Below the pieces are notes generated by a model. That model was not told where the DNA came from. It did no database searches and was given only the letters and a program-made list of their open reading frames with translations. A stretch of 39,521 bases of DNA, taken from positions 1-39,521 of the IMG/VR virus record IMGVR_UViG_3300033143_001263, one strand, 5' to 3'. A program made the translations under genes and the position numbers. The DNA is from a virus. This document shows, piece after piece, positions 4,328 through 38,766 of the stretch; position 1 is the stretch's first letter; the number at the start of each line of letters is the position of its first letter.

Positions 4328-5296
4328 ATGGCAATGATTGATGAAGTTAGGAGTACAGTATTAGGTATTATTAATAAGAATAATTACGGATATTTATCTC
4401 CTCAAGATTACAATTTATATGCAACACAAGCTCAGTTGGATATATATGAAGATTATTTTTATCAATATAATCAATATATAAACAGAGAAAATTTAAGACA
4501 GTCAGGAACAGGATATGCTGATATTGTAAAAGGATTGGTAGAGGTTATTGATTCTTTTTCAGAAGAAGTTTTTTTAACACAAGCAAATGCAAATACATTT
4601 AGCTTACCAGCAGATTATTACTTAATAAACAAAATATTTTATTATCCAACTTTATTAACCAGTGGAACTACTGCAGCAGGTAACATTGCAAATAAGTTAG
4701 ATGCTACAGGAACACCATTTGTAGTGCCAGGAGGATTTAATATACCACAATTTCCTCCAACAAATAGTATTGTAATTAATACTGACTCGTCAACTTTAGG
4801 TCAGGCTTTTGTTACAGCTGTAGATTCTACTAACGTATTAAGTATATCGGACTCTATATTTAATGTAGCAGGAGGTGGTGAAAACTATTCTATCTATGAT
4901 AACACTAACATAACCGAAGTAGAAAGGGTTAGTCAAAACAAAATATTTTATTTAACAAGTTCTACTTTGACAGCACCATCTAATCAGTATCCTGCCTATG
5001 TGCTATCAGGTAACATTGTTTCAGTTTATCCAACATCTATAAGAAGTGCAGGACAAATAAAAGCACAATATGTAAGGTATCCAAAGTCTCCTCAATGGAC
5101 TTATCAAATATTATCTGGAGGAGCACCTTTATATGATCCTACAATGGCTGGTCATCAAGACTTTGAATTACCATTATCTGATATGCCTGGATTAGTTGCT
5201 AAAATATGTCAATATATAGGAATAGAAATTAGAGAATCTGAAGTATATCAGTTTGGATCTCAAGAAATAGTTCAAGACAACCAAATACAAGTATAA
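4328..5296 (+). CDS. Connector/ring-like structural protein 1
   Basis: This 322-aa protein starts with a helical, tyrosine-rich segment (NNYGYLSPQDYNLYATQAQ, residues 18-36), as seen in head-tail adaptor/ring proteins of crAss-like and marine flavobacterial podoviruses. Around residues 145-191 it carries one copy of the beta module repeated in the preceding protein (TAVDSTNVLSISDSIF, then ENYSIYD). The C-terminal part contains AQYVRYPKSPQWTY and ends in a helix. The gene starts the second late transcript and is followed 3 bases later by another connector-like gene. Function is inferred from order and character. Confidence 0.6.
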   Translation: MAMIDEVRSTVLGIINKNNYGYLSPQDYNLYATQAQLDIYEDYFYQYNQYINRENLRQSGTGYADIVKGLVEVIDSFSEEVFLTQANANTFSLPADYYLINKIFYYPTLLTSGTTAAGNIANKLDATGTPFVVPGGFNIPQFPPTNSIVINTDSSTLGQAFVTAVDSTNVLSISDSIFNVAGGGENYSIYDNTNITEVERVSQNKIFYLTSSTLTAPSNQYPAYVLSGNIVSVYPTSIRSAGQIKAQYVRYPKSPQWTYQILSGGAPLYDPTMAGHQDFELPLSDMPGLVAKICQYIGIEIRESEVYQFGSQEIVQDNQIQV

Positions 5297-15145: not shown

Positions 15146-18100
15146 ATGAATAAAGAAGCTTTAGAAACTTTATATGGGTTAGCTCAACGAGATGGTTATA
15201 CAAAATCTTTAGAAGAGTTTACTATTTTAATGCAACAAAATCCTGAAGCAGTAAATCAGATGTATGGTATTGCAAGAAAAAATGGATATCAAAAGTCAGA
15301 AGAAGATTTTAACATATTAGTTGGATTTCAGCAACCTGTAAAAAAAAAAGAACCGACACCAGAAAGCCCAGAAAGCCCAGAAGTGGATTCAGATGGTTCT
15401 GGGGATCTGGAAATTACGGAGGAAGTTATTACGGAAAACGAAGGAGTTGGCACTTCGGATTATTTACAAAGTCAGGATCTTGATTTTGAAATGGCTGAGG
15501 TTAAACCCTACAGTCCTGTTTATGCCGATGCTCAAATGCAAGACTTATCAGTTGGTGAGAGAGACACTGCAATAGAAAGAATATTTGGTAAAAATGAATT
15601 TACAGATTTTTTTGGCGATATGTGGCGGTCAGGTGTTCAAGGCCAAGCACAAGGAGGAACTATTGATGAGTCATTAGAATTATTAGGTAAATCTCGTATC
15701 GGTGCTGACATAACGTCCGAAGATATACAAGATTTTTTAATAGCACAAAGACAATTACAAAGCGTAGGTGTTTCAGATGAAATGAAAGACTTTAATCGTA
15801 TATACCAAGCTAACGGTGGTGGTGCGTGGGGTTGGGTAAAAGGTGTTTTGGCTAACCCATCAACAATACCTCAGCTATTTGTTTCTTCAATGAGTGCTAT
15901 GGTAAACCCTACTGTATTAGCAGGAGCTGCCGCTGGTGCGGCTGCAGGTTCTGTTGCTTCACCTATAGGAACAGCTGCAGGGTTTTTTGCAGGAGCTGGT
16001 ATAACATTAGAAACAGGTTTAACTTTTGCTGAATTATTACAAAAAGAAGTTGTTGATAGAGGGTTAAAAATGGATGAGGCAGGGGTAAGACAAGTCTTAG
16101 AAGATAAAGACGCAATGAGTAGTATCCGAAATAAATCAGCAGGGCGTGGACTTGTTATTGGTGCTATTGATGGTATTGCTTCTAAAGTAGGTGTAAAGGT
16201 AGGTGCAAGAACTTTAGGCGGTAAAGCATACGGTTTAGGCAAAAAAGTAAAAGCGACTGGTCAAGTAGCGGCAATAGAGGCAGCAGGAGGTTCTCTTGGT
16301 GAAATAGGTGGGCGATTGGCAGCTGATCAAGAAATGGATGCAGCTGAAGTTTTATTTGAAGGGTTTGCGGGAACAGCAACTTTACCTGCTACACTTGGAA
16401 TAGCAGCATATAAATCACCTAAATATTACATAAATAAAAGTCAATTTAATGAAGAAGGAAAAGACTTAACACGTGTTGATCCTGAAGTCATGGAAGATTT
16501 AATTTATAATTCTACAGATGAAGAATTTGCTGCAGCCGAAATAACTATTAAAAACAATCCAGAGTTAGAAAAAGTTGCTGCTGATAGAAAGAAAAAAATT
16601 CATAGTAAAGCAGAAGCACAAAGAGAAATACTACAAGCTAAACCAAATATAAGTCAAGAAATATTAGACAAATTAGTTCCTCTTCAAGAAGAATTAAATT
16701 CATTAGAAGGTAATAAATCACAACCAGCAAAGAAAAGAAAAGCTGAAATTATTGCAGAAATGAATAAAATAGAAGAAACAATGGTTGTGGAAAGATTTGT
16801 AGAAACTAAAGATTTAGCAGAAAAAAAGAAAAAAGATACTGAAGAAACAACTGCTGTTGAAGAAGTAGTTGAAGAAACAACTGCAACACCTGAAGTAAAA
16901 GAAGAGGCAAAAGATTTAGCAGAAGCTGTGGCTTTAGATACTGATGAGACAGTGACAAATGAAGAAGGAGAAGTAGTAGGAGAAAAAGTTGATGAAGGAG
17001 AAGTAATGATTAGATATGGTGAAGAATCAGAACAAGATCTATTTGCACCATTAGATTTCAAAAACACTAAGAGAACAGGTAAAGGACCAGCACCAGCTAA
17101 CTTAACATTCTTTGGTCCAGCTAATAGAGCTGGAACATATAAAGCAGAAGGAACTCGTAATAAATTTACCGCAAAACTTAATATCAAAAACCCATTTGAA
17201 GTTAAAAAATCTGATGTTTGGACAGTAGAAAAATTACAACCAATTATAGATGCAGGTCATGACGCTATTGTAGTTACAGATCCTGTAGCTCCTGAAACAA
17301 TTGTATTAGATAAAAGTATTATAGAACTCACTGCACCTACAGTAGAAAAAATAAATCAAGTTGGTGATATTTTTTCTGACTCAAAAAATACAATGCAAGA
17401 AAACGAAACAAAAATTGCAGAGATTTCTGATATTGAATCAATAAACACAGATAACAGTAATGTTAATCAAGGACAAGTAAGTGTGTCAGGATCATTTAGT
17501 CCAGGGTTTACTACCATAGTAGGTGATTCAAAATTAAATCAGGACAGAAGAAATGCTGTTACAAAAGCTGTTAAAGTTGATAAACAAGGTAAATTAATAA
17601 ATAAAGATGTCAATTTATATTTTGATATTTATGATTTAAAGGATGGTAGTAAAGTTTTTTCATTAGTAAATCCTAATCATAGAGATTCAGCAAAAAGAAG
17701 TGCTGTTTATTCTGTAAACATAACATACGATGCTAATAGTCCAATAGCACAAAATTTTACTACAGCTGACCAGAATGCTATAAATGAAGTATTAATCAAA
17801 AAAATGAATCAAATTACTTCTGAAGTTACAGGAGTAAAAACTAAACCAAAACAAGATGCCACTACAAAGCAAAGCCCAACTAAGGTGGATGGCCAAAAAC
17901 AAGCCAAACCTGTTCAAGATGTTTCTAAGAGAGACACCAAACGTGGAAAGCCTACCAGAGAGAAAGTCCAAGACCAAAATGAGAAACAGAAACAAGACAC
18001 GCAAAAGAAAACGAAAATAAAAAAACTAAATGCAATAGCACCTAATGCATATGTAAACGTGTCTGACACTGGCTCAACTAAAGTTGCTCAACAGTTTATA

Positions 18101-21100
18101 AAACCTGCCAAAAGAGCTCTGTCTGCGTTAAAAAAATTAGCACCAGATGTTATGGTTGTAATACATGAAAAAGATGTTGACTATCGTAAAGCTATTGGTA
18201 ATCCAAAACAAAAATCTGCTGGTGTATTTAGAAATGATAATGTAATTCATATCAACGCTGAATTAGCTAATACATTTAAAAACCCAGTAAGAGTATTACA
18301 ACATGAAATTTTTCATGCTATATTAAAAAACAAATTAGGTTCAGAAACTAAAATAGCTGCACTAACAGACAGAATGTTTAAGGCTCTTTCAAAATCAGAA
18401 TTAGATCCTGAAGTAAAAAAACAAATTGATGAGTATATAGAGTTATATAAAGATGCTAATAAAAGCGACAAAGAAAGATTGTCATACGCTAATGAAGAAT
18501 ATATGGCAGAAGTGTTTGGGTTTTTAGCTAATAACTTAACAACATTAAAAGCACCTCAACAATCTATTATTAAAAGGTTCTTAAGTAAATTAAGTAATTT
18601 ATTAGGGCTTACTGCAGAAGATGTTCTTGGTACTGACAAAGCAATGATTGATTTATTGAATGTAGTAGCAGGAAAAGTACAAACTGGAGAAACAATTACT
18701 AAGTCAGATGTAAAACAACTTGACTTATTTGCAGGTGGTAAAGAGGTGAAAAATCCATCAGCTGCTTTAAAAACCATGATATATGGTGATTTTGAAATTA
18801 CTTACACTGAGGATGAAAAAATTGCTGATTATATAAAAGAAGGTTTAATTACACAGCCTAAAAAGGTAAAAGATGTATTTAAAAACATGGGTGATAAGGT
18901 AGAGGTTCTTGTCCATTCTCCAGATGATATGTTAGCTGGTGAAATAAAATATAAAGGTGAACAAATATTTGAAGGTTCAGGAGGAATATTTTTTGTAACT
19001 AAGTTTGGTGATGTATGGGCTTCTACTAAGGATGCAGCAAATCAAATAGTTAAAGGATTAAACAAACAAATTGATGAGCAGGGTAGAGGTTTTATGATGT
19101 TAGCCAAAGGATCAACACAAAAATTATTCAGTGCAGCGGCAGGTGTTGAAGGAGCAATGAAAATTTTAGATTTAATGTTAGATAATAAAATATTTTCTCC
19201 ATCTGAATTTAGAGCTGCAGTAAGCCGAGCTGTTGCTAAAGAACAAACAAGACTAACAACAAAAGCTAAAAAAGAGAAAAAACCTGCTCCAAAATTTAAA
19301 CCATTTAAATTAAGAAAAAGTGCAAAGGATCTTAAGAAAGATGTTGTAAAATTATTAGCCGACAAAGATTCTGGTACGTTTGAAGCAAGAGGTAATATTG
19401 TAAGAGGAATTGCTGATGCTTTAGCGGCAGCAAAGTTAACTCCAGAACAACAATTGAGAGCAGCTGAATTTTTAGGAGGTGATACTAAAAGAAAAGTTGG
19501 TGTTGGTTCTACTGTTCAGGCTAAAACAGGAATACCTTTACAACAAGGACTTGCTGATTTAGTTGCTTTAGCTATGGCTGAAAATATAACAAAAGGATTA
19601 AGTACAGGAGATATATATGGTATTATAGAAGTTAATAAAAAAGTACAGACCTTTGATACGAATCATCCAAGTTATCAGAAGACAATAAAAATTGTAGATA
19701 AAGACGGTAAACCAATAGAGGGTAAGGAAGGAAAACCCATATTACATTTACCTCAAGACAGAGAAGCGGGTAAAGATGTATTAGTTCCTAATTTTGGTCA
19801 AGCAGGAACGACTCCATATAAGCCAGGCCAAGTTCCTACCATGACAGGTGAAGTAAATATGGTTACAGAAAAAACTTCTTTGTATACTGGAAAGAGTCAA
19901 GAAAAAAGAATATTTAATAAAGAAGATAGTATCAATGATGTTGTGGCTAAGGCCAGAGGATTAGATTATAGTGAGGCAGCTATATTTGAATACTTAAGAA
20001 ACAATAGAAAACTATCTACAGATGAAGCAAGAGCAGCTTTAGAACAAAAGACAGAAGCTTTTACTGATATACCAATGGAGTTCCAAATGGTTAATGGTGG
20101 TATAAATGAAGGACAAACTTTATTTAATCAAGTGTCTTATGAAATGAATAAGTTCAGTGTAGATAATCCTGATGCTACTCGTATACAAACTGAAAAAAAG
20201 GCTTTTGAAATTTTAAGAAACAACGACATATTTAAGGCTCAGGATAAAAATATACAAAACAATATTGAAATAGCATTTAAAGGTGTTGTTGGTAAGATAG
20301 AAAGTGTAGAGGTAAATAGACGTATAAGTCGTTTAAAAAGAGATTTATATATATCTAAAAGAGGACAAAGAGATTTAAGAAAAGTACAGCTGCAACTTAA
20401 ACAACTAATTAGAAAATATGTTCCTAAGGAGGCTACATTTACAAAACCTGAATTAGATAGAATTTTAAATAGTATAGCTACAGCAACTCAAGATTCTATT
20501 TTATCTGTAGGTCAAAAAATATTTGATGCTGTTGATGCTAAAAGAAAACAAATAAAGTTCAAAAGAATAAAAGAAATAAAAGAGATGGTTAATAAATTAG
20601 CTAAATCAGCTAACAAAAAATCATCACGTCCTATTGCATCAAACATAGAAGGAGCTGGTGTAGCATTCTTTAAAGAAGTTCGTAATGTTTTACAAGCTTC
20701 TTTGATACCTGATGCTGTAAAAAGAGGAGAAAAACTATTTCAAATAGGTGCTTTGATTGAATCAAATCAACAGGAAACACAGATTGCATTAGAAAAACAA
20801 AAACGAGGAGAAGCCTTAACATTAAGAGAACAAACATTATTAGCTCGTATATTGGCTTTTGATACCTTTCAAAATATATACAATCAAGATTTAGAAGCTA
20901 TTACTGATATTTTAGAAAAAATGAAAGAGGCTAAGACTGATTCAATAGCTATGCTAAATATGGCAAGGTTAGAACGAGCTGAGGTAAACAATGAAATATA
21001 TGAATCAGCAACAAATCAGATCAGACAAAACTATCCAGAACTATTTTTAGATGACGGTAAGGGTGACTTAAAAACTAAAAGAGATTTAGATGCTGTAGAC

Positions 21101-23347
21101 AAAGAAAGATTTTTAGGTACGACTCGTAGTAAAATAAAAAACTTTATAAAACAATTTAATTTTACTTCTACAGTTGGTATAAGAGCTTATCTAAGAAATA
21201 GATTATCTCACTTAGGAACATTAATGAATATTATTGATGATGTTAATGTTGGAAACACATTTTTTTATGACTCAGTTTATCAAGGAATAAACAGAATGCA
21301 TACAAAAGCATTAAGAGGATATTATAATGCTCAGACAATGATTGATTCTATTGCTGCAAGTATAGATGGTATAAACAGTTATCAAGACTTAAAAGAAAAA
21401 TTACCTTTTGGACCTCAAAAAATAGACTTTAAAGGCACAACCTATATTAACGCAGCAACTAATGAAGCTCAAGAAGAATTTAGTGTTACACAATTAATGA
21501 GAATATATGCCTTAAGTAAAAACAAAATACAAGCAGAAAAATTAGAGGCTTCAGGATTTGGTGAGGCACAGATAAAACAAGTAAAACAAATTATAGGAAC
21601 AGATGCAATAGAGTTTGTAGATAAAATAGTTGAATGGTTAAGTACCGATTACTTTAATAGTATTAACAATGTATACAAACAAGCCAACTATACTGACTTA
21701 GGTTTTGTAGAAAATTATTTTCCTACAAAAAGTATTTCTCAATCAGATGTATCAAAAGACTTGATTGGAGGTGCAAACTTTGCTAAAGTTTTTAGTGCTG
21801 AAACTGCTCCATCATTAAAAGAAAGGGTAGATGAAAAGGGAGCGATTGACACTGAACCTGACTTTATTGAAACTTTAGAGAACCACGTTTCTCAAATGGA
21901 AAGGTACAAAGCATACGCATTAGGTGTTAAAAATTTACAAGCTTTATTTAAAGTTCCAGCTGTAAATACTTTACTAACTCGTTTAGGAATATCTGAACGA
22001 GTAAACACGTCTATTAATTTAGCTTTAAACCCAGAGTCAGGTGTTCGTACTCAAGGTTTTATGGCTAAATTACAAAGAAAGTTTACAGGCTTTGCTTTAG
22101 GTTTTAAGGCTATTCAGTTACTAAAACAATCTACATCTTTTATTAACGCTTTTGAAGAATATAAAGGTAAAGGTGGTCTTGGTGGTTTTATGATAGGCAT
22201 GGCAAAAGTTGTGGCAAGACTTCCTTACTATATGAAATTAGCGTCTGAAATATCTCCTGATTTTAGAGATCGTTTGCGTAAAGGATTAGAAGGTGATTTG
22301 TATAGATTAGAAACAGGAAGTAGAACCACAGCTCCAGTAGAGAGAAGAATTAAAGATATGAGACAAGCATTGAAAGAAAAAGACTATGATGCTTTTAAAA
22401 ATAAAATTATAACTTTATTTCAAAAAGGTGCAGCTATGCCTACAGTTCTGGGTGATATTATGGGAGTTATGGGTTACATGGTAAATTACGAAGCTAATCT
22501 TGCTAATGGTATGTCAAAAGCAAAAGCCGCTGAAGCATTTAATAATTACAATGCTACTCAGCAATCACGAAGAGAAACAGATAAAATACCTTTACAACAA
22601 AGTCAGAATGAATTAACCAGAGCTTTTACAATGTTTGGAAGTACACTGTTTTTACAAATGAATAAAGTAATGAGCTCTACTGGTAATATAGCAAAGGCAA
22701 TAAAAAACAAAAAAGTTCCACGTAAACAAGATATACGAGGGTTTGCTTTAAACTTTGCTGCTGCCAACGTGATGTTTGCTTTAGCTGCAAATATGTTTAA
22801 ATTTATGGGTAATGATGAAGACAAAGAAGAGGCAATGAATAGATTAAAAGACGCTATGTACGGATTAAACTTATTGTATCAAATTCCATTTATTGGTGCA
22901 GCTTCTCAAGAATTTATAATGAGACAACAAGGAAGGTCTATAGGTTATGCTGATGATGTAGTAAACCCTATAAAGTCTGTAATCAGAAAAATAAACAAAG
23001 GCATTAAAGATGGAAGAGTTGATAAGAGTATTAGGCCACTTGTTGAAATTTTATTAGGAGCACAGCTTGATCCTTTTGTTGGTATGTATAATTTTATTAA
23101 TGATCAGGGTGGAGCACGTGATGATGCGTTCTACGACATCTTTGGTATAAGTCCATCTTATAGGCCAGGGACTGGTGTGGTTTACAGCCCAGAAGATTTA
23201 AAATATATAAAAGAAACTAATCCAGAGCTATATAAACAAATTCAAGAAAACAAAAAATTATCAAAGAGTGGAGGTAAAAAGAAAATGAGTAAATCAGAAA
23301 TGAAACGTACTAACCCTGAAATGTATTATCAAATCTATGGAGAGTAA
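15146..23347 (+). CDS. Giant polyvalent internal virion protein with metallopeptidase and ART-like domains
   Basis: This 2733-aa protein occupies the T7 gp16-like slot. Visible parts in order: two N-terminal repeats of YG(L/I)Axx(D/N)GYxKSxE(E/D)F (residues about 10-50); an acidic linker; a Gly/Ala-rich hydrophobic stretch at about 250-300; a Lys/Glu-rich linker (about 540-620); a domain at about 620-735 with LNIKNPF (NPF at 682-684), then DAIVV and IVLDKSIIEL, resembling ADP-ribosyltransferase-type domains of phage polyvalent proteins; a zinc metallopeptidase site H1053-E-I-F-H1057 with a possible downstream Glu ligand in NEEYMAE (1116-1122); an uncharacterised region near 1247 (MGDKVEVLVHSPDDMLAG); long helices; and a C-terminal ejection-protein-like part with hydrophobic helices (2316-2560) and a DIFGISPSYRPGTG ending. 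It is likely packaged and injected with the DNA. The ART call is tentative because catalytic residues are not certain. Confidence 0.7.
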   Translation: MNKEALETLYGLAQRDGYTKSLEEFTILMQQNPEAVNQMYGIARKNGYQKSEEDFNILVGFQQPVKKKEPTPESPESPEVDSDGSGDLEITEEVITENEGVGTSDYLQSQDLDFEMAEVKPYSPVYADAQMQDLSVGERDTAIERIFGKNEFTDFFGDMWRSGVQGQAQGGTIDESLELLGKSRIGADITSEDIQDFLIAQRQLQSVGVSDEMKDFNRIYQANGGGAWGWVKGVLANPSTIPQLFVSSMSAMVNPTVLAGAAAGAAAGSVASPIGTAAGFFAGAGITLETGLTFAELLQKEVVDRGLKMDEAGVRQVLEDKDAMSSIRNKSAGRGLVIGAIDGIASKVGVKVGARTLGGKAYGLGKKVKATGQVAAIEAAGGSLGEIGGRLAADQEMDAAEVLFEGFAGTATLPATLGIAAYKSPKYYINKSQFNEEGKDLTRVDPEVMEDLIYNSTDEEFAAAEITIKNNPELEKVAADRKKKIHSKAEAQREILQAKPNISQEILDKLVPLQEELNSLEGNKSQPAKKRKAEIIAEMNKIEETMVVERFVETKDLAEKKKKDTEETTAVEEVVEETTATPEVKEEAKDLAEAVALDTDETVTNEEGEVVGEKVDEGEVMIRYGEESEQDLFAPLDFKNTKRTGKGPAPANLTFFGPANRAGTYKAEGTRNKFTAKLNIKNPFEVKKSDVWTVEKLQPIIDAGHDAIVVTDPVAPETIVLDKSIIELTAPTVEKINQVGDIFSDSKNTMQENETKIAEISDIESINTDNSNVNQGQVSVSGSFSPGFTTIVGDSKLNQDRRNAVTKAVKVDKQGKLINKDVNLYFDIYDLKDGSKVFSLVNPNHRDSAKRSAVYSVNITYDANSPIAQNFTTADQNAINEVLIKKMNQITSEVTGVKTKPKQDATTKQSPTKVDGQKQAKPVQDVSKRDTKRGKPTREKVQDQNEKQKQDTQKKTKIKKLNAIAPNAYVNVSDTGSTKVAQQFIKPAKRALSALKKLAPDVMVVIHEKDVDYRKAIGNPKQKSAGVFRNDNVIHINAELANTFKNPVRVLQHEIFHAILKNKLGSETKIAALTDRMFKALSKSELDPEVKKQIDEYIELYKDANKSDKERLSYANEEYMAEVFGFLANNLTTLKAPQQSIIKRFLSKLSNLLGLTAEDVLGTDKAMIDLLNVVAGKVQTGETITKSDVKQLDLFAGGKEVKNPSAALKTMIYGDFEITYTEDEKIADYIKEGLITQPKKVKDVFKNMGDKVEVLVHSPDDMLAGEIKYKGEQIFEGSGGIFFVTKFGDVWASTKDAANQIVKGLNKQIDEQGRGFMMLAKGSTQKLFSAAAGVEGAMKILDLMLDNKIFSPSEFRAAVSRAVAKEQTRLTTKAKKEKKPAPKFKPFKLRKSAKDLKKDVVKLLADKDSGTFEARGNIVRGIADALAAAKLTPEQQLRAAEFLGGDTKRKVGVGSTVQAKTGIPLQQGLADLVALAMAENITKGLSTGDIYGIIEVNKKVQTFDTNHPSYQKTIKIVDKDGKPIEGKEGKPILHLPQDREAGKDVLVPNFGQAGTTPYKPGQVPTMTGEVNMVTEKTSLYTGKSQEKRIFNKEDSINDVVAKARGLDYSEAAIFEYLRNNRKLSTDEARAALEQKTEAFTDIPMEFQMVNGGINEGQTLFNQVSYEMNKFSVDNPDATRIQTEKKAFEILRNNDIFKAQDKNIQNNIEIAFKGVVGKIESVEVNRRISRLKRDLYISKRGQRDLRKVQLQLKQLIRKYVPKEATFTKPELDRILNSIATATQDSILSVGQKIFDAVDAKRKQIKFKRIKEIKEMVNKLAKSANKKSSRPIASNIEGAGVAFFKEVRNVLQASLIPDAVKRGEKLFQIGALIESNQQETQIALEKQKRGEALTLREQTLLARILAFDTFQNIYNQDLEAITDILEKMKEAKTDSIAMLNMARLERAEVNNEIYESATNQIRQNYPELFLDDGKGDLKTKRDLDAVDKERFLGTTRSKIKNFIKQFNFTSTVGIRAYLRNRLSHLGTLMNIIDDVNVGNTFFYDSVYQGINRMHTKALRGYYNAQTMIDSIAASIDGINSYQDLKEKLPFGPQKIDFKGTTYINAATNEAQEEFSVTQLMRIYALSKNKIQAEKLEASGFGEAQIKQVKQIIGTDAIEFVDKIVEWLSTDYFNSINNVYKQANYTDLGFVENYFPTKSISQSDVSKDLIGGANFAKVFSAETAPSLKERVDEKGAIDTEPDFIETLENHVSQMERYKAYALGVKNLQALFKVPAVNTLLTRLGISERVNTSINLALNPESGVRTQGFMAKLQRKFTGFALGFKAIQLLKQSTSFINAFEEYKGKGGLGGFMIGMAKVVARLPYYMKLASEISPDFRDRLRKGLEGDLYRLETGSRTTAPVERRIKDMRQALKEKDYDAFKNKIITLFQKGAAMPTVLGDIMGVMGYMVNYEANLANGMSKAKAAEAFNNYNATQQSRRETDKIPLQQSQNELTRAFTMFGSTLFLQMNKVMSSTGNIAKAIKNKKVPRKQDIRGFALNFAAANVMFALAANMFKFMGNDEDKEEAMNRLKDAMYGLNLLYQIPFIGAASQEFIMRQQGRSIGYADDVVNPIKSVIRKINKGIKDGRVDKSIRPLVEILLGAQLDPFVGMYNFINDQGGARDDAFYDIFGISPSYRPGTGVVYSPEDLKYIKETNPELYKQIQENKKLSKSGGKKKMSKSEMKRTNPEMYYQIYGE

Positions 23348-31286: not shown

Positions 31287-31548
31287 ATCTATTTATAAAT
31301 TCTTCGGTTAATGTTTTATTTAATTTATATTTACTCATATCATTTTTTACAATGATCTTTTCAGGTATTGGTAATGCGTATTTACACGCAGAAACAAATC
31401 TACCTTTTATTTCTATTTTATCAGTCTCTTTAAAGAAATTATTCATTTCAATAGTGTCTAATCTATGTGCTTTATTATAGTTCCTCAAGTGTTGTTCGGA
31501 CCTGACTTGGTCCACTAAATATTGTGCTAATCTTTTCATTTTATTCAA
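31234..31548 (-). CDS. Small basic hypothetical protein, 104 aa
   Basis: I do not recognise this Lys/Arg/Asn-rich protein (VDQVRSEQHLRNYNKAHRL; C-terminal RYERNKKKTKLLYRKKR). It is the first gene of the recombination operon after a structured leader (31549-31727). The basic nature suggests nucleic-acid contact, but no motif is seen. Its start is preceded by an AT-rich leader without Shine-Dalgarno. Confidence 0.5.
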   Translation of the reverse strand: MNKMKRLAQYLVDQVRSEQHLRNYNKAHRLDTIEMNNFFKETDKIEIKGRFVSACKYALPIPEKIIVKNDMSKYKLNKTLTEEFINRYERNKKKTKLLYRKKRV

Positions 31549-31727
31549 TTAAATTTTTAGGAGGTAGATAAGAGTATTAACTTGTTTGGGCATTATTGCC
31601 TTTATACCTACCTCCCTAAATACAACAAGTCAAACATTTAATATTAAGGTATCTTACACCTATAAAATTATGGGATTATTCCCGACTTGTTATTTTGTTT
31701 TGTAATTATTTAACTGATGAATTTCTT
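31549..31727 (-). ncRNA. Candidate structured, switch-like leader of the recombination operon
   Basis: This gene-free gap precedes the gene at 31548. One stem pairs 31560-31567 with 31608-31615 (8 bp) around a GGCA-TTAT-TGCC hairpin (31589-31600). A second pairs 31624-31631 with 31684-31691 (8 bp) and encloses AGGT/ACCT and GGGA-TTAT-TCCC (31672-31683). The strand at 31624-31630 is also complementary to 31580-31586, so two pairings exclude each other. This looks like an attenuator or a regulated leader. It is based on visual pairing only. Confidence 0.45.
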
Positions 31728-32882: not shown

Positions 32883-32900
32883 TTAATAATTTCTACAAAA
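32883..32900 (-). promoter_or_regulatory. 18-bp element shared by two early promoter regions, copy 1
   Basis: TTAATAATTTCTACAAAA occurs here and, identically, at 36136-36153. Both copies lie a few tens of bases upstream of the first gene of a minus-strand early unit. Read on the minus strand it begins TTTTGTAG, so it could contain a -33 TTTG element, with TAGACTTAC 18 bases after the TTTTG here and TAATCTTAC 21 bases after it at the other copy. Confidence 0.5.
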
Positions 32901-32944
32901 ATAAATAAAAAAAACTTAATAAACAAATATATTTAGATCTTTTT

Positions 32945-32981: not shown

Positions 32982-33004
32982 AAAAAAACCCCTCAAAAGA
33001 GGGG
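32982..33004 (-). terminator. Intrinsic terminator of the early unit
   Basis: On the minus strand CCCCTC-TTTT-GAGGGG (32989-33004) is followed by seven T (32982-32988). It ends the transcript of the genes at 36114-33031. Confidence 0.92.
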
Positions 33005-33030
33005 TGTACCAAGATTAATCTCAGCCATAT

Positions 33031-33854: not shown

Positions 33855-34037
33855 TTATTGACTTGTTACCAATACTACCTCTTGGTATTCTTTACCTCTC
33901 CCCCCAAAAGTTTTGTGTAACTCTACTTTAAATACCCATTCATTAGGTAAATCATCAGGAACATTATTCATTATAGTTCTGATTGGTATGTCTTGAGGTA
34001 GTTTTTGTAATTCATTTATTAAATCTTTAACATCCAT
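33855..34037 (-). CDS. Small early protein, 60 aa, behind an RNA leader
   Basis: I do not recognise it with certainty. DVKDLINELQKLPQDIPIRT is the kind of N-terminus seen in small phage proteins of unknown role, followed by VFKVELHKTF and EYQEVVLVTSQ strands. It is preceded at about 20 bases by the conserved two-hairpin leader (34056-34113). The same leader stands in front of the 87-aa gene at 35836, suggesting shared control. Confidence 0.55.
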   Translation of the reverse strand: MDVKDLINELQKLPQDIPIRTIMNNVPDDLPNEWVFKVELHKTFGGRGKEYQEVVLVTSQ

Positions 34038-34055: not shown

Positions 34056-34113
34056 TGCGAGGATTATTCCTCTACCACGAAATCCCCAATGCGATTAGCA
34101 TTGAGGCACGTGG
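34056..34113 (-). ncRNA. Two-hairpin RNA leader, copy 1
   Basis: Read on the minus strand: CCACG...CGTGG outer pairing, inner stem CCTCAATGC / GCATTGGGG with loop TAATC, then GTGGTAGAGG, hairpin GAGGA-ATAA-TCCTC and GCA. A second copy lies at 35854-35914, with different bases but preserved pairing in the inner stem and identical flanking GTGGTAGAGG and CCTCGCA blocks. Both precede a start codon at about 20 bases. Conserved unpaired bases and compensatory changes point to a functional RNA. Confidence 0.6.
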
Positions 34114-34130
34114 AAAAAACAAAACAAAAA

Positions 34131-34628
34131 CTATTCTTTAAGTGTATATGATTCTTTAGGTTTTAAAGGGTTGACAACTGTTGTATGCTTACGATTGTAT
34201 CTGAATTCTACAGCATCAACATGCATTAGAACACCACCCTGAGCAATACATTTTTCTACAACAACTCGGCCAAGATCGTTTGATTCTTCTCCATCCCATT
34301 CCATCTCTCCTTCAGCATAAATCTCTTCTCCTTTTGTACTCCATTCATGAAGTTTGTTTAAGAAAAATTCTATCCACTTTCTGCCCATGTAAGTCTTCTC
34401 TCCACCATCCCAAAAGAAAACTCCATACTTTTCACCCCAATTTGTTGTTCGGTTTTCAATCATAAATCCACACCATATGCTCGGCATTATTCTTTTTGGG
34501 TCTCCATATGGATGAAGTTCATCATCGTGTCGTGTGTCTCTGATTTTGGTATTCCAATAAGTCAATTCTTCTTTAGTGAACGCTCTATTGGTTTTTAATT
34601 GGCCTTCCCAATCTGTATTGTATCCCAT
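34131..34628 (-). CDS. Hypothetical early protein, 165 aa
   Basis: The N-terminus MGYNTDWEGQLKTNRAFTKEE resembles small phage proteins with an MGYxTxxEG start, whose role is unknown. The body has many Trp (SIWCGFMIENRTTNWGEKYG, FFWDGGEKTYMGRKWIEFF) and an acidic GEMEWDGEESNDLGRVVVE section. This suggests a compact soluble fold. It is transcribed with its neighbours; 5 bases separate it from the upstream gene. Confidence 0.55.
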   Translation of the reverse strand: MGYNTDWEGQLKTNRAFTKEELTYWNTKIRDTRHDDELHPYGDPKRIMPSIWCGFMIENRTTNWGEKYGVFFWDGGEKTYMGRKWIEFFLNKLHEWSTKGEEIYAEGEMEWDGEESNDLGRVVVEKCIAQGGVLMHVDAVEFRYNRKHTTVVNPLKPKESYTLKE

Positions 34629-34633
34629 TTTTA

Positions 34634-35152
34634 TTATTTTAAGTTAGTAATTAATCTGAATTGATAATCGTAGTCATCAAATTCACAATAGTATCTGTCT
34701 CCATTATCTGCAATCTGTCTGAGTCCCTCTATGTCTGTAGTAACCCATTCTTTTTCTTTATGCTCTTCAATCCAATTTTCTATTCTCCATTCTAAATCCT
34801 CTATAGTTTCATCGTATTGTTTTTTGGTAAATAGGGAAACAGTATTTATATTGCATAAGATACCGAATGCGTAAGTATCCTCTTTTAATTCATAAACTTG
34901 ATAGCTTCCATCATTACCATTTGCACCTTCATAAATGTATCCATCTCCATCGCTGTATGGCTCGGCATTTCCCCACCATTCCTGATTGCTATATTGTGAT
35001 ACATCTCCCTCAATATTATTTGCTTCACTTAGGGCTCTTGAGTATGCCCATTCAAATGCTTTATTTTTATCTGTGAATATGCGTGTGTCAACTCCATTGT
35101 GGTCAGAGTATCCCTCACCATTCCACGTGTCTATTACTATATATTTTTTCAT
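34634..35152 (-). CDS. Hypothetical acidic early protein, 172 aa
   Basis: I do not recognise a family. The protein begins KKYIVIDTWNGEGYSDHNGV, then contains Trp/Tyr/Asp-rich acidic segments (YSDGDGYIYEGANGNDG) and a C-terminal DNGDRYYCEFDDYDYQFRL. The high acidity could mimic DNA or bind a basic partner, but this is speculative. A GNRA-capped hairpin precedes the gene at 35184-35201. Confidence 0.5.
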   Translation of the reverse strand: MKKYIVIDTWNGEGYSDHNGVDTRIFTDKNKAFEWAYSRALSEANNIEGDVSQYSNQEWWGNAEPYSDGDGYIYEGANGNDGSYQVYELKEDTYAFGILCNINTVSLFTKKQYDETIEDLEWRIENWIEEHKEKEWVTTDIEGLRQIADNGDRYYCEFDDYDYQFRLITNLK

Positions 35153-35183
35153 TTTGTTTTATTTAATTTATACTATGTTGCTG

Positions 35184-35201
35184 ACACTACTTGCGTAGTG
35201 T
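35184..35201 (-). promoter_or_regulatory. GNRA-capped hairpin in the leader of the 172-aa gene
   Basis: The minus strand has ACACTAC-GCAA-GTAGTGT, a perfect 7-bp stem with a GCAA tetraloop, 32 bases before the ATG at 35152 and just after the stop of the upstream gene. No T tract follows, so it is a leader element rather than a terminator. Confidence 0.5.
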
Positions 35202-35210
35202 TTCGGAAAT

Positions 35211-35573
35211 TTATTCCTCTTCAGAGCAACTGAATAACTTCATATAAGCATCTGCATACTTTTGCTTATACATCTCCTGAACAGTGTCTATGCTTTCTAA
35301 AATGCAATTTCCATAGTAGTCTGTCCATTCTTTTTTTAATCGGATTCTAACAGTACCATCGTTGTTTTCATCCTTACCTCTTATCTTATCAGTAAGCCAC
35401 TGTATGTTCTGTTGGATGTCCTGATTCCATCTACCTTTAGTCCTGAATAATACTCTTGAACAGAGTTGTGCTTCTTCCCATGAACTAAATACGATGTTGT
35501 TGTTCATCCATCTGACAAGTTCTCTTCTGTTATTGTCCCTGAACCTGACATAATTATTGTCTCTGTATTTCAT
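35211..35573 (-). CDS. Hypothetical early protein, 120 aa
   Basis: I do not recognise this basic, Arg/Asn/Trp-rich protein (NNYVRFRDNNRRELVRWMNN, then LCSRVLFRTKGRWNQDIQQN). The C-terminus has VQEMYKQKYADAYMKLFSCSEEE. Arg-rich segments could contact nucleic acid. It is joined to the upstream gene by a TAATG overlap at 35573. Confidence 0.5.
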   Translation of the reverse strand: MKYRDNNYVRFRDNNRRELVRWMNNNIVFSSWEEAQLCSRVLFRTKGRWNQDIQQNIQWLTDKIRGKDENNDGTVRIRLKKEWTDYYGNCILESIDTVQEMYKQKYADAYMKLFSCSEEE

Positions 35574-35836
35574 TATTGCAAGTGGTTTTCGTTAATATAG
35601 TCTTCTATCTCCATCCATAATGCCTCATACAGTTTGTCTGTTACATCATCATTATTTAACGTGAGTTTTTTAATCTCAATGTTATGCTCTCTTGGTGTAC
35701 TTCTGTCTATAGCTTCAGGAATATCTGTCTCTAAATACGTTACTCCAAGTACGTTATTCTTGCTCAATTCGTAGCAGCAGTATTTGATTTTTGTCCACTG
35801 ATTATATATGTGGTTGAATTTATTTTCTACTTTCAT
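35573..35836 (-). CDS. Small early protein, 87 aa, behind an RNA leader
   Basis: I do not recognise it. The protein is mixed charge with KFNHIYNQWTKIKYCCYELS near the start and an acidic end with LYEALWMEIEDYINENHLQ. It follows the second copy of the two-hairpin leader (35854-35914). Stop and next start overlap (TAATG). Confidence 0.5.
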   Translation of the reverse strand: MKVENKFNHIYNQWTKIKYCCYELSKNNVLGVTYLETDIPEAIDRSTPREHNIEIKKLTLNNDDVTDKLYEALWMEIEDYINENHLQ

Positions 35837-35853
35837 TTGTTTGTTTTTTATTA

Positions 35854-35914
35854 TGCGAGGAATAGCCCTCTACCACAAAAACCCCACTACTTTCATAGTG
35901 AGGTATCTGAGGTT
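35854..35914 (-). ncRNA. Two-hairpin RNA leader, copy 2
   Basis: Minus strand: stem CCTCACTA / TAGTGGGG with a 6-base loop (TGAAAG), then TTTTTGTGGTAGAGG, hairpin GAGG...CCTC and GCA. Compared with copy 1 the inner stem bases AATGC/GCATT are replaced by ACTA/TAGT with pairing kept, and the U-G wobble in CCTCA/TGGGG is kept. The T run after the stem also looks terminator-like. It lies 18 bases before the ATG at 35836. Confidence 0.6.
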
Positions 35915-35922
35915 GATAAGGT

Positions 35923-36114
35923 TTAGTGAAACTGCTCTAATTCTACCTTCAATAAATCGTTCTTATGCAGTTGTTTGATGGTAGCATATACTACCCTCAT
36001 CGTGTTCTTAAACTCTCCCATATCGTTTATATTTAACTCCTCTGTGATGTTAAATGCTATAATTTCAACGGGTGAATGAATAGGGATTGACATAGTTTTT
36101 TCTTCTGTTTTCAT
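35923..36114 (-). CDS. Small early protein, 63 aa, first gene of the minus-strand early unit
   Basis: I do not recognise it. It has an acidic start (KTEEKTMSIPIHSPVEIIAF), a middle NITEELNINDMGEFKN and a C-terminal helix (VVYATIKQLHKNDLLKVELEQF). An internal Met (residue 8) could be an alternative start. As first gene after the control region it is probably made very early, perhaps as a regulator or host-takeover factor. Confidence 0.5.
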   Translation of the reverse strand: MKTEEKTMSIPIHSPVEIIAFNITEELNINDMGEFKNTMRVVYATIKQLHKNDLLKVELEQFH

Positions 36115-36135: not shown

Positions 36136-36153
36136 TTAATAATTTCTACAAAA
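36136..36153 (-). promoter_or_regulatory. 18-bp shared element, copy 2
   Basis: The sequence is identical to 32883-32900. It lies 22 bases upstream of the ATG at 36114 and is followed on the minus strand by TAATCTTACAAATATG, similar to TAGACTTAC at the other copy. Confidence 0.5.
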
Positions 36154-36577
36154 CTACTTAATAATAATGACTTATGCAAATGATTCTGTATTTATTTTCA
36201 CTATTAATACTTCTTTTTCTTTATTTATTTGATAATCAGCTGGATTATCCTGAGTCTGTCGGTGTGATTTGTTTGTGTGTGAAGTGTGTCGGACTGTGGC
36301 TAAGGGAAGTCTCTGCACTTCTCCTTACACTTGCAAGTCTGTAGGGGTGGGGGAAGGTGCTGCTTGAGTTAGTGCGTTAAACGTAAAGCAATGGCCTGTG
36401 CGTGTACGTGAGTGGGCGTGTGCGTGTGCGTGGTGGGCAAAGTAAAAGACAAAAAATTCCGATAAAAAATTACAAAAAAACAACCCCCCCCTAAAAAAAA
36501 ACTACGTTTCCTATTACAGTAGTTATGTGTATAAGTATGTGGAACACTCAACCTCTAAATGTCTAACAAAATTTTAT

Positions 36578-37176: not shown

Positions 37177-38766
37177 ATGGAACAAGGATATATACCAAAA
37201 GACCTGAGCTTTGATGATGAAGCACGTCATAAGTTAATTACAGGTATCACTAAAATTTCTAAAGCAGTTAAGAGTACATTAGGACCATTGGGTAAAACTG
37301 TTTTGATTGAATCACCAAACCATACATCAGGCATGACTGTAACTAAAGATGGTGTTACTGTAGCCGAGTCTGTTTACTTAGATGATCCAATAGAAAACTT
37401 AGCAGTTAGAATGGTTAAAGAAGCGTCATCACGTACAGCACAATCTGCTGGTGATGGAACAACTACTGCAATTGTTCTTACAGAAGCTTTAGTAAAAGCG
37501 GGACAACAAACATTAACATCAGAGTCAAACACCACAGAAGTTATTAGGTATATAAATAATCATGCATCAAAAGTAATATCAAACTTAGAAAGCAATTCTA
37601 AAAAAGTAACTGAGGATAGGTTATTAGACGTTGCTTCTATATCTGCTAATAATGATAGAGAGATAGGTAAGATCATTAAAGATGCATACACACAGGTTGG
37701 TATCAATGGAATGGTAACTGTAGAAAAGTCTATGACATCCGAAACCTATGCTGAGGTTACTAATGGAATTAAAATAGCAAGAGGTTGGTCTTCTAATTTA
37801 TTTATCAATAATCAAAAGAAAGATGAATGTATACTTGAAGATGTAAAGATTTTAGTTTGTGATTCTGAAATAAACAGTATACTACAAATTGAAAATGTTT
37901 TGAAGCCTGTTATAAACAACGGAGATAAACTGTTAATTATTGCACCATGTGCTGTAAATGTTATAAATACTTTAGCAGCTAACGTTGTTCGTAATGGATT
38001 AAAGTTTTGTAATATAGCACCTCCACAATTTGGATTCAAGCAACATGAGCTTATGCAGGACATTGCATTATCAGTTGGTGCAAAATATTATTCTGAAAAG
38101 ACTGGAGACGATTTGAGTTTAATAATGCCACATGATTTGGGTACTGCTGATAAAGTAATCGTTGGTGAAAAGTCTACTGTCATATTCAAAAAAGATAATA
38201 ACACACCAGAGTTAAACGACAGAATAAAAGAATTAAAGGTTCAACAAAAGAATACCAAAGATAAGTCAACAAGAGAATTTATAAATGAACGTATAGCCAG
38301 TTTAGCAGGTTCTATTGGCTGTATCTTTGTTGGAGGTAACTCAGATATAGAACAAAAAGAAAAGTATGATAGAGTGGATGATTCAGTATGTGCAGTACGT
38401 TCAGCTTTAGAAGAGGGTATATTGTCTGGTGGAGGTATAGCATTGTTTAGAGAATCATTGAAGTTAAAAGCCAAAACCAAAAACCAAGATGAAAAAGATG
38501 CTGTCTTAATTTTAGAATCAGCTCTTCGCTCACCACTTATGCAAATATTAGCTAACGCTGGTAAAGATAATGACAAAGTTATTGACCAAGTGTTTGATAA
38601 AAAATACAACTACGGTTATGATGTAAAGAACAATAAGTACGGAGACATGTATGACATGGGTGTTATTGATCCACTTAAGGTAACAAAGAACGCACTGACT
38701 AACGCAGTTAGTGTTGCTACAACTATACTTAGCACTAATGCTATTGTAACAAATATGAGAGCATGA
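37177..38766 (+). CDS. groEL: Phage-encoded GroEL chaperonin
   Basis: This 529-aa protein is a group I chaperonin, which forms rings that fold proteins in an ATP-dependent cavity. Diagnostic parts: VKSTLGPLGK (31-40), GMTVTKDGVTVA, the ATPase signature AGDGTTTA (91-98), apical VINTLAANVVRNG, then DRVDDSVCAVRSALEEGILSGGG with the catalytic-type Asp and GGG at 418-420, and MGVIDPLKVTKNAL near the end. It lacks the C-terminal Gly-Gly-Met tail of many bacterial GroEL. The sequence is divergent from bacterial versions and the gene order is groEL before groES, unlike host operons, so it is a phage gene and not contamination. It probably folds capsid or tail proteins. Confidence 0.95.
   Translation: MEQGYIPKDLSFDDEARHKLITGITKISKAVKSTLGPLGKTVLIESPNHTSGMTVTKDGVTVAESVYLDDPIENLAVRMVKEASSRTAQSAGDGTTTAIVLTEALVKAGQQTLTSESNTTEVIRYINNHASKVISNLESNSKKVTEDRLLDVASISANNDREIGKIIKDAYTQVGINGMVTVEKSMTSETYAEVTNGIKIARGWSSNLFINNQKKDECILEDVKILVCDSEINSILQIENVLKPVINNGDKLLIIAPCAVNVINTLAANVVRNGLKFCNIAPPQFGFKQHELMQDIALSVGAKYYSEKTGDDLSLIMPHDLGTADKVIVGEKSTVIFKKDNNTPELNDRIKELKVQQKNTKDKSTREFINERIASLAGSIGCIFVGGNSDIEQKEKYDRVDDSVCAVRSALEEGILSGGGIALFRESLKLKAKTKNQDEKDAVLILESALRSPLMQILANAGKDNDKVIDQVFDKKYNYGYDVKNNKYGDMYDMGVIDPLKVTKNALTNAVSVATTILSTNAIVTNMRA

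Follow-up and report, generated by a model that had tools for sequence, protein, structure and literature searches.

A repeated RNA leader with covarying stems precedes early genes in phages related to Elemovirus

Two elements on the minus strand of a 39.5 kb phage piece (39,521 nucleotides; we refer to this whole stretch as the window) belong to a well-supported and previously uncatalogued family of RNA leaders, which we compared in 59 copies on approximately 40 phage contigs sharing the window phage's primase. The element probably acts in cis on either the translation or the 5' end formation of early genes, and the best explanation we can offer, held tentatively and on the strength of the sequences, is that it works through host machinery on how these genes are translated, by start-site insulation or standby. 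The RNA family is new, while its kind, the repeated cis-acting phage leader, is already known. Post-transcriptional control in Bacteroidota phages has been little explored, and Bacteroidota hosts initiate without Shine-Dalgarno pairing. A compact leader with clear compensatory mutations, reused before many unrelated early genes and present in one to three natural copies in each phage that bears it, offers ready material for testing how Bacteroidota choose messages for translation or process them, and it could serve as an expression part for Flavobacterium.

The early genes of the window phage lie on the minus strand, and both copies are internal to an early operon, between its promoter and its terminator (Table 1). 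An earlier note had proposed from the letters a duplicated two-hairpin leader, possibly undescribed, with two shared blocks, and the combined pattern GTGGTAGAGG-N6-CCTCGCA indeed matches exactly at 34056–34078 and 35854–35876 on the minus strand. There are still exactly two matches in the window when up to three mismatches are allowed; in 100 dinucleotide shuffles the mean was 0.01 matches, and no shuffle contained two. The observation is confirmed, with RNAfold z-scores of -5.1 and -3.7 for the two copies, but an outer third stem (P1) had been missed, and the GAGG/CCTC hairpin (P3), present in both window copies, is not part of the family core. The inner stem (P2) is as described: its letters differ between the copies while pairing is kept, and its U-G wobble (CCUC/GGGG) is present in the minus-strand RNA alone. 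The closeness to small early genes holds as well, at 18 and 17 nt from the ATGs.

Table 1. Positions of the two leader copies, their parts and the neighbouring features in the window.
Feature	Position	Strand	Details
Element copy 1	34056..34113	-	whole span
Copy 1 P1	34113-34109 / 34079-34075	-	CCACG / CGTGG
Copy 1 P2	34106-34098 / 34092-34084	-	CCTCAATGC / GCATTGGGG, loop TAATC
Copy 1 internal-loop strand, and TA	34083-34080; 34074-34073	-	ATTT is the internal-loop strand (first position); TA precedes P3 (second position)
Copy 1 P3	34072-34069 / 34062-34059	-	GAGG / CCTC, then GCA
Element copy 2	35854..35913	-	whole span
Copy 2 P1	35913-35906 (5' side)	-	ACC-u-CAGA / UUUG-u-GGU
Copy 2 P2	35903-35896 / 35889-35882	-	CCTCACTA / TAGTGGGG, loop TGAAAG
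Copy 2 after P2		-	TTTT, then GTGGTA
Copy 2 P3	35870-35867 / 35860-35857	-	GAGG / CCTC, then GCA
60-aa gene, downstream of copy 1	33855..34037	-	ATG 18 nt past element; no family match
87-aa gene, downstream of copy 2	35573..35836	-	ATG 17 nt past element; no family match
165-aa gene, upstream of copy 1	34131..34628	-	end of stop codon to P1, 17 nt
63-aa gene, first of operon, upstream of copy 2	35923..36114	-	end of stop codon to P1, 9 nt
Putative operon promoter	36149..36180	-	Bacteroidetes-type, TTTG-N20-TAGTTTTG; read from the sequence
Intrinsic terminator closing operon	32988..33005	-	ACCCCTC TTTT GAGGGGT, then T6-7

The promoter is one that we take to be of the established Bacteroidetes type. 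A second, near-identical early promoter is located at 32896–32927 on the minus strand; both read TTTG-N20-TAnnTTTG, then GTAGAAATTATTAA, and each of the two starts an early operon. A search for T7-type RNA polymerase (PF00940) gave no match in 18 phages, with control genomes equally silent.

Family members were collected beginning with an exact scan of viral contigs for the P3/core pattern, which contains no part of P2. This gave 26 matches; we discarded roughly half of them as coincidences in GC-rich coding sequence, and 11 AT-rich contigs carried the whole element 17–19 nt before an ATG. Nearly all of these first relatives have a well-paired P2 made of other letters (e.g. GCTCACTA/TAGTGGGC and GCTCAGTA/TACTGGGC). 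A covariance model (R1) recovered many more copies, which lie upstream of the primase in the relatives, and a second model (R2) found further copies absent from its training set; at loci that could be oriented by the primase, every significant match is on the primase strand. The covariance-model search had been named beforehand as a check of the earlier proposal of a cis-acting, phage-specific RNA for processing or translation control, and the many homologs, with stems preserved through compensatory change, support it.

The element is present in 16 of 31 related phages tested. The window primase and the gene order (Erf, exonuclease, primase, helicase, GroEL) resemble those of Elemovirus-like podophages, and the carriers are podophages related to Elemovirus, presumably with Bacteroidota hosts. 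A phage-encoded GroEL-type chaperonin (Cpn60) is located at 37177–38766 on the plus strand of the window, and Elemovirus relatives have GroEL together with GroES. Searched as DNA against named phages, the element gave chance matches only, and the element is absent from the stretches searched of Elemovirus 10-3D, Maribacter phage Panino and MW202828 (primase 67% identical). Among 295 Bacteroidia genomes there were only five weak matches, all of them ordinary terminators on inspection, so that phage-specificity holds as far as tested and we set aside an element of host genomes. The Rfam 15 covariance models found nothing in the window at gathering thresholds and chance matches only around copy 1 at E≤5, in keeping with an RNA not previously described.

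The conserved order of the unit is P1, an internal loop, the P2 hairpin, GUA, usually P3, and some 21 free A-rich bases before the AUG. P1 has about 5 bp; the internal loop usually has 2–4 nt on its 5' side and UUUU or AUUU on its 3' side; and P2 has 8–10 bp under loops such as GAAA, UAAUC and UUAC. P3 is present in about 35 of the 59 copies, many with letters other than GAGG/CCTC, and has variable stems and tetraloops including AUAA, AUAG and AUGU. Conservation also extends to unpaired letters, namely the UUUU strand and GUA, and GTGGTA is near-invariant (49 of 59 copies). We rejected a tRNA or tmRNA identity (ARAGORN, 0 genes in the window) and set no store by the tRNA D-loop-like letters UGGUAGAG seen in some copies, given that P3 letters vary and no tRNA was found; a Shine-Dalgarno role for the GAGG of P3 was likewise discarded, as it is too distant from the ATG and missing in other P3 types.

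Across 46 copies, 97.8% of P2 cells are paired, compared with 41–52% when the strands are slid, and 77 cells show double changes as against 17.7±3.7 in shuffles that ignore relatedness; double changes are seen at six of the eight P2 pairs. Because P1 was in no search model, it and the later-found copies provide the least biased tests of covariation. The 5' flank of each copy pairs with that copy's own 3' strand at a total score of 526, compared with 447±12 when strands are permuted among copies and a maximum of 495 in 20000 permutations, and own-flank pairing is also supported among the later-found copies (p=0.001). Examples include CCACG/CGTGG, CCTAG/CTAGG, CCTAC/GTAGG, CTACA/TGTGG and CTACC/GGTAG; P1 is weak in a few copies.

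The third P2 pair is U-G in 36 of 46 copies, and the excess of G-U pairs over A-C mismatches in P2 (48 against 1) identifies the coding strand as the folding strand. Taken alone, this bias is compatible with folding of coding-strand single-stranded DNA, but the distances to translation signals argue for RNA because they are near-fixed. An element acting at the DNA level, whether a promoter, a repressor site or a recombination joint between gene cassettes, is very improbable. Flanks do change on either side of identical copies, as with the window and contig L030, which have a common 5' module and diverge directly after GGTAG, but the wobbles are strand-asymmetric, the stems covary, and the spacing from stop and ATG hardly changes. 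Nor is the Bacteroidetes -7 promoter motif enriched overall upstream of the copies (7 found, 8 expected), and a sigma-70 scan showed no excess over shuffles.

All 59 copies have a T run after P2, and a weak intrinsic terminator or attenuator, in which P2 and TTTT stop a fraction of transcripts within the leader, was weighed. P2 and T4 of copy 2 were flagged as terminator-like, model R2 cross-matches real terminators in Bacteroidia genomes, and Bacteroidota intrinsic terminators resemble the element in having a GC-richer hairpin followed by T. However, the run is only 2–5 T (mostly 3–4) and is interrupted by NGTGG-type letters, whereas the phage's own terminators have 6–7 T; a proper intrinsic terminator, with about six or more T directly after the hairpin, can be rejected. 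P1, moreover, covaries and closes only after the T tract, for which a terminator has no need, GTGGTA is conserved, and the element travels with the downstream gene. Attenuation is therefore quite unlikely.

The association with the downstream gene follows from comparison of flanks: many pairs of copies have similar downstream and unrelated upstream flanks, with the reverse in only about five, and we conclude that the element belongs to the gene it precedes. The genes following it are diverse, comprising a methyltransferase-like protein and several small families, with several different genes per genome; relatives of the window's 165-aa gene (MGYNTDW...) are themselves preceded by the element in L034, L036 and L039. 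Seventeen copies have a wide or undetermined gap to the upstream gene, and five of these have a TAnnTTTG motif 26–48 nt upstream, compared with 1 of the 42 others (p=0.006). The element is thus kept behind either a gene or a promoter motif. An intercistronic hairpin without UUUU-GTGGTA, ACACTAC-GCAA-GTAGTGT, occupies a similar position before a 172-aa gene at 35153–35210 on the minus strand of the window.

The spacing on both sides is constrained. The upstream stop codon is always at least 19 nt from P2, mostly 19–27 nt, and about 19 nt is, from ribosome footprints, roughly the smallest gap that leaves a hairpin folded beside a terminating ribosome. Downstream, the free spacer from the end of P3 to the ATG is mostly 17–22 nt (median 21), and in copies lacking P3 the distance from GUA to the ATG is 14–36 nt. 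The 3' end of the element coincides with the start of the region of low pairing propensity described in F. johnsoniae, where the stretch from -20 to +20 is little paired and initiation benefits from adenines at -3, -6, -12 and -13 (PMC6847099).

These positions suggest how the leader may work. In the mRNA the unit is predicted to form one irregular hairpin, in which an internal loop with a U4 strand separates P1 from P2 and a GNRA-like or UAAUC-like loop caps P2. GUA comes next, then usually the short P3 with its AUAR-type loop, and finally about 21 unpaired A-rich bases up to the AUG. The unit would sit immediately past the footprint of a ribosome that terminates on the upstream gene and just short of the 30S initiation region of the gene that follows, and from this position between the two footprints it should be able to stay folded while both genes are translated. 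The leader could then shield the A-rich start region from upstream RNA, whether a preceding cistron or a leader, keep the start site open and in this way support initiation on the downstream gene, presumably recognized by or acting through host machinery and with no dedicated phage protein. Against insulation, P3 and the free spacer vary among copies, and about half of the related phages lack the element, so that early gene translation can proceed without it. GUGGUA and U4 are conserved beyond what base pairing requires, and this suggests a specific recognition partner, for which simple insulation has no need. It is doubtful, though conceivable, that the structure is a start tag replacing Shine-Dalgarno guidance, such that host ribosomes or a host RNA-binding protein recognize P1/P2-GUGGUA at about -35 and favour early phage genes in infection.

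The main rival to an effect on start sites, drawn by analogy with T7 R1.1 and ranking before an operator and then attenuation, is an RNA processing site, and we regard it as possible. On this view, as at the early intercistronic sites of T7, a host RNase III-type enzyme would cut at the U4 internal loop and separate the downstream cistron, with P2 then protecting the new 3' end and P3 capping the new 5' end. R1.1 itself is 60 nt long, has a 4/5-nt internal loop and lies between genes 1.0 and 1.1 (PMC6121014), and the T7 early RNase III sites resemble the element in being structured internal-loop hairpins, repeated several times between cistrons of an early phage operon and served by a host enzyme. 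Both window copies are intercistronic in an early operon and have an irregular hairpin with an internal loop, and the loop has a conserved U4 strand on its 3' side. A search of these phages for RNase III found none, with the control detecting it in 8 genomes; the enzyme used would then be the host's, and no phage gene co-occurs with the element. However, P1 and P2 together give a duplex of only about 13–15 bp in addition to the loop, which is little for RNase III and below the roughly 20 bp of a T7-type site; the strongly conserved GUGGUA letters are not demanded by RNase III; and the element is coupled to its downstream gene and in some copies directly follows a promoter, where there is no upstream cistron to split off. 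Cleavage is a candidate here.

The near-invariant GTGGTA, the conserved unpaired UUUU and GUA, and the occurrence of the element before several different genes of one genome would also suit a translational operator, at which a phage or host RNA-binding protein on the hairpin and GUGGUA represses or activates several early genes co-ordinately, in the manner of T4 RegA-type or coat-protein operators. Among 170 gene families in 24 large phage contigs (14 with the element and 10 without), however, none tracks significantly with it after correction (best p=0.02, uncorrected), which makes a dedicated phage regulator unlikely, except as a core gene or a host protein. The structure also lies outside the 30S site, so that protein binding need not block initiation, and overall we consider an operator rather unlikely. 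T4 RegB and RegA do control many early phage messages at translation start regions (PMC3014915), but both are phage proteins; RegB cuts GGAG motifs and is inhibited by structure, and RegA binds variable sites without RNA structure, whereas the element is structured and has no co-occurring protein that we could find.

An effect on translation has likewise been suspected, and is unproven, for SAS and ESAS of Cluster K mycobacteriophages, described in the sections drawn on here as repeated phage-specific elements immediately upstream of the starts of different gene families, rare or absent in the host, with inverted repeats in ESAS (PMC3203893, PMC12699233). Our element, too, recurs ahead of the starts of genes from unrelated families in a single phage group, and the resemblance is functional only. 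SAS is tied to the start codon itself, whereas the element ends about 20 nt upstream of it; P1 and P2 covary, whereas those sections do not describe RNA structure or covariation for ESAS; and the hosts differ. The 13-bp SAS sequence GGGATAGGAGCCC has no match in the window with up to two mismatches.

Several further features of the window and its relatives were also noted. A 2733-aa protein encoded at 15146–23347 on the plus strand has no significant Pfam or PDB relative, its sole match being a PHROG of unknown function over residues 133–587. At 31541–31700 on the minus strand, a second and larger structured leader precedes a small gene (MKRLAQYLV...) and is conserved in at least 13 relatives, with compensatory changes at 14 of 23 predicted pairs and near-invariant TAATATTAAATGTTT, AAAGGC and GTTAATACT blocks; it gave chance matches only with Rfam at E≤5, and looks like an uncatalogued cis-regulatory RNA or a ribozyme-like element. 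In L016 (reverse complement, near base 5039) and L041 (near base 2032), a P3-type mini-hairpin, GGCAATAGTGCC or GGGAATAGTCCC, is followed by TTAATTAA...ATG and preceded by a different 5' hairpin, ACAAGAGCAAATTTGCTCTTGT, which suggests that these leaders are modular.
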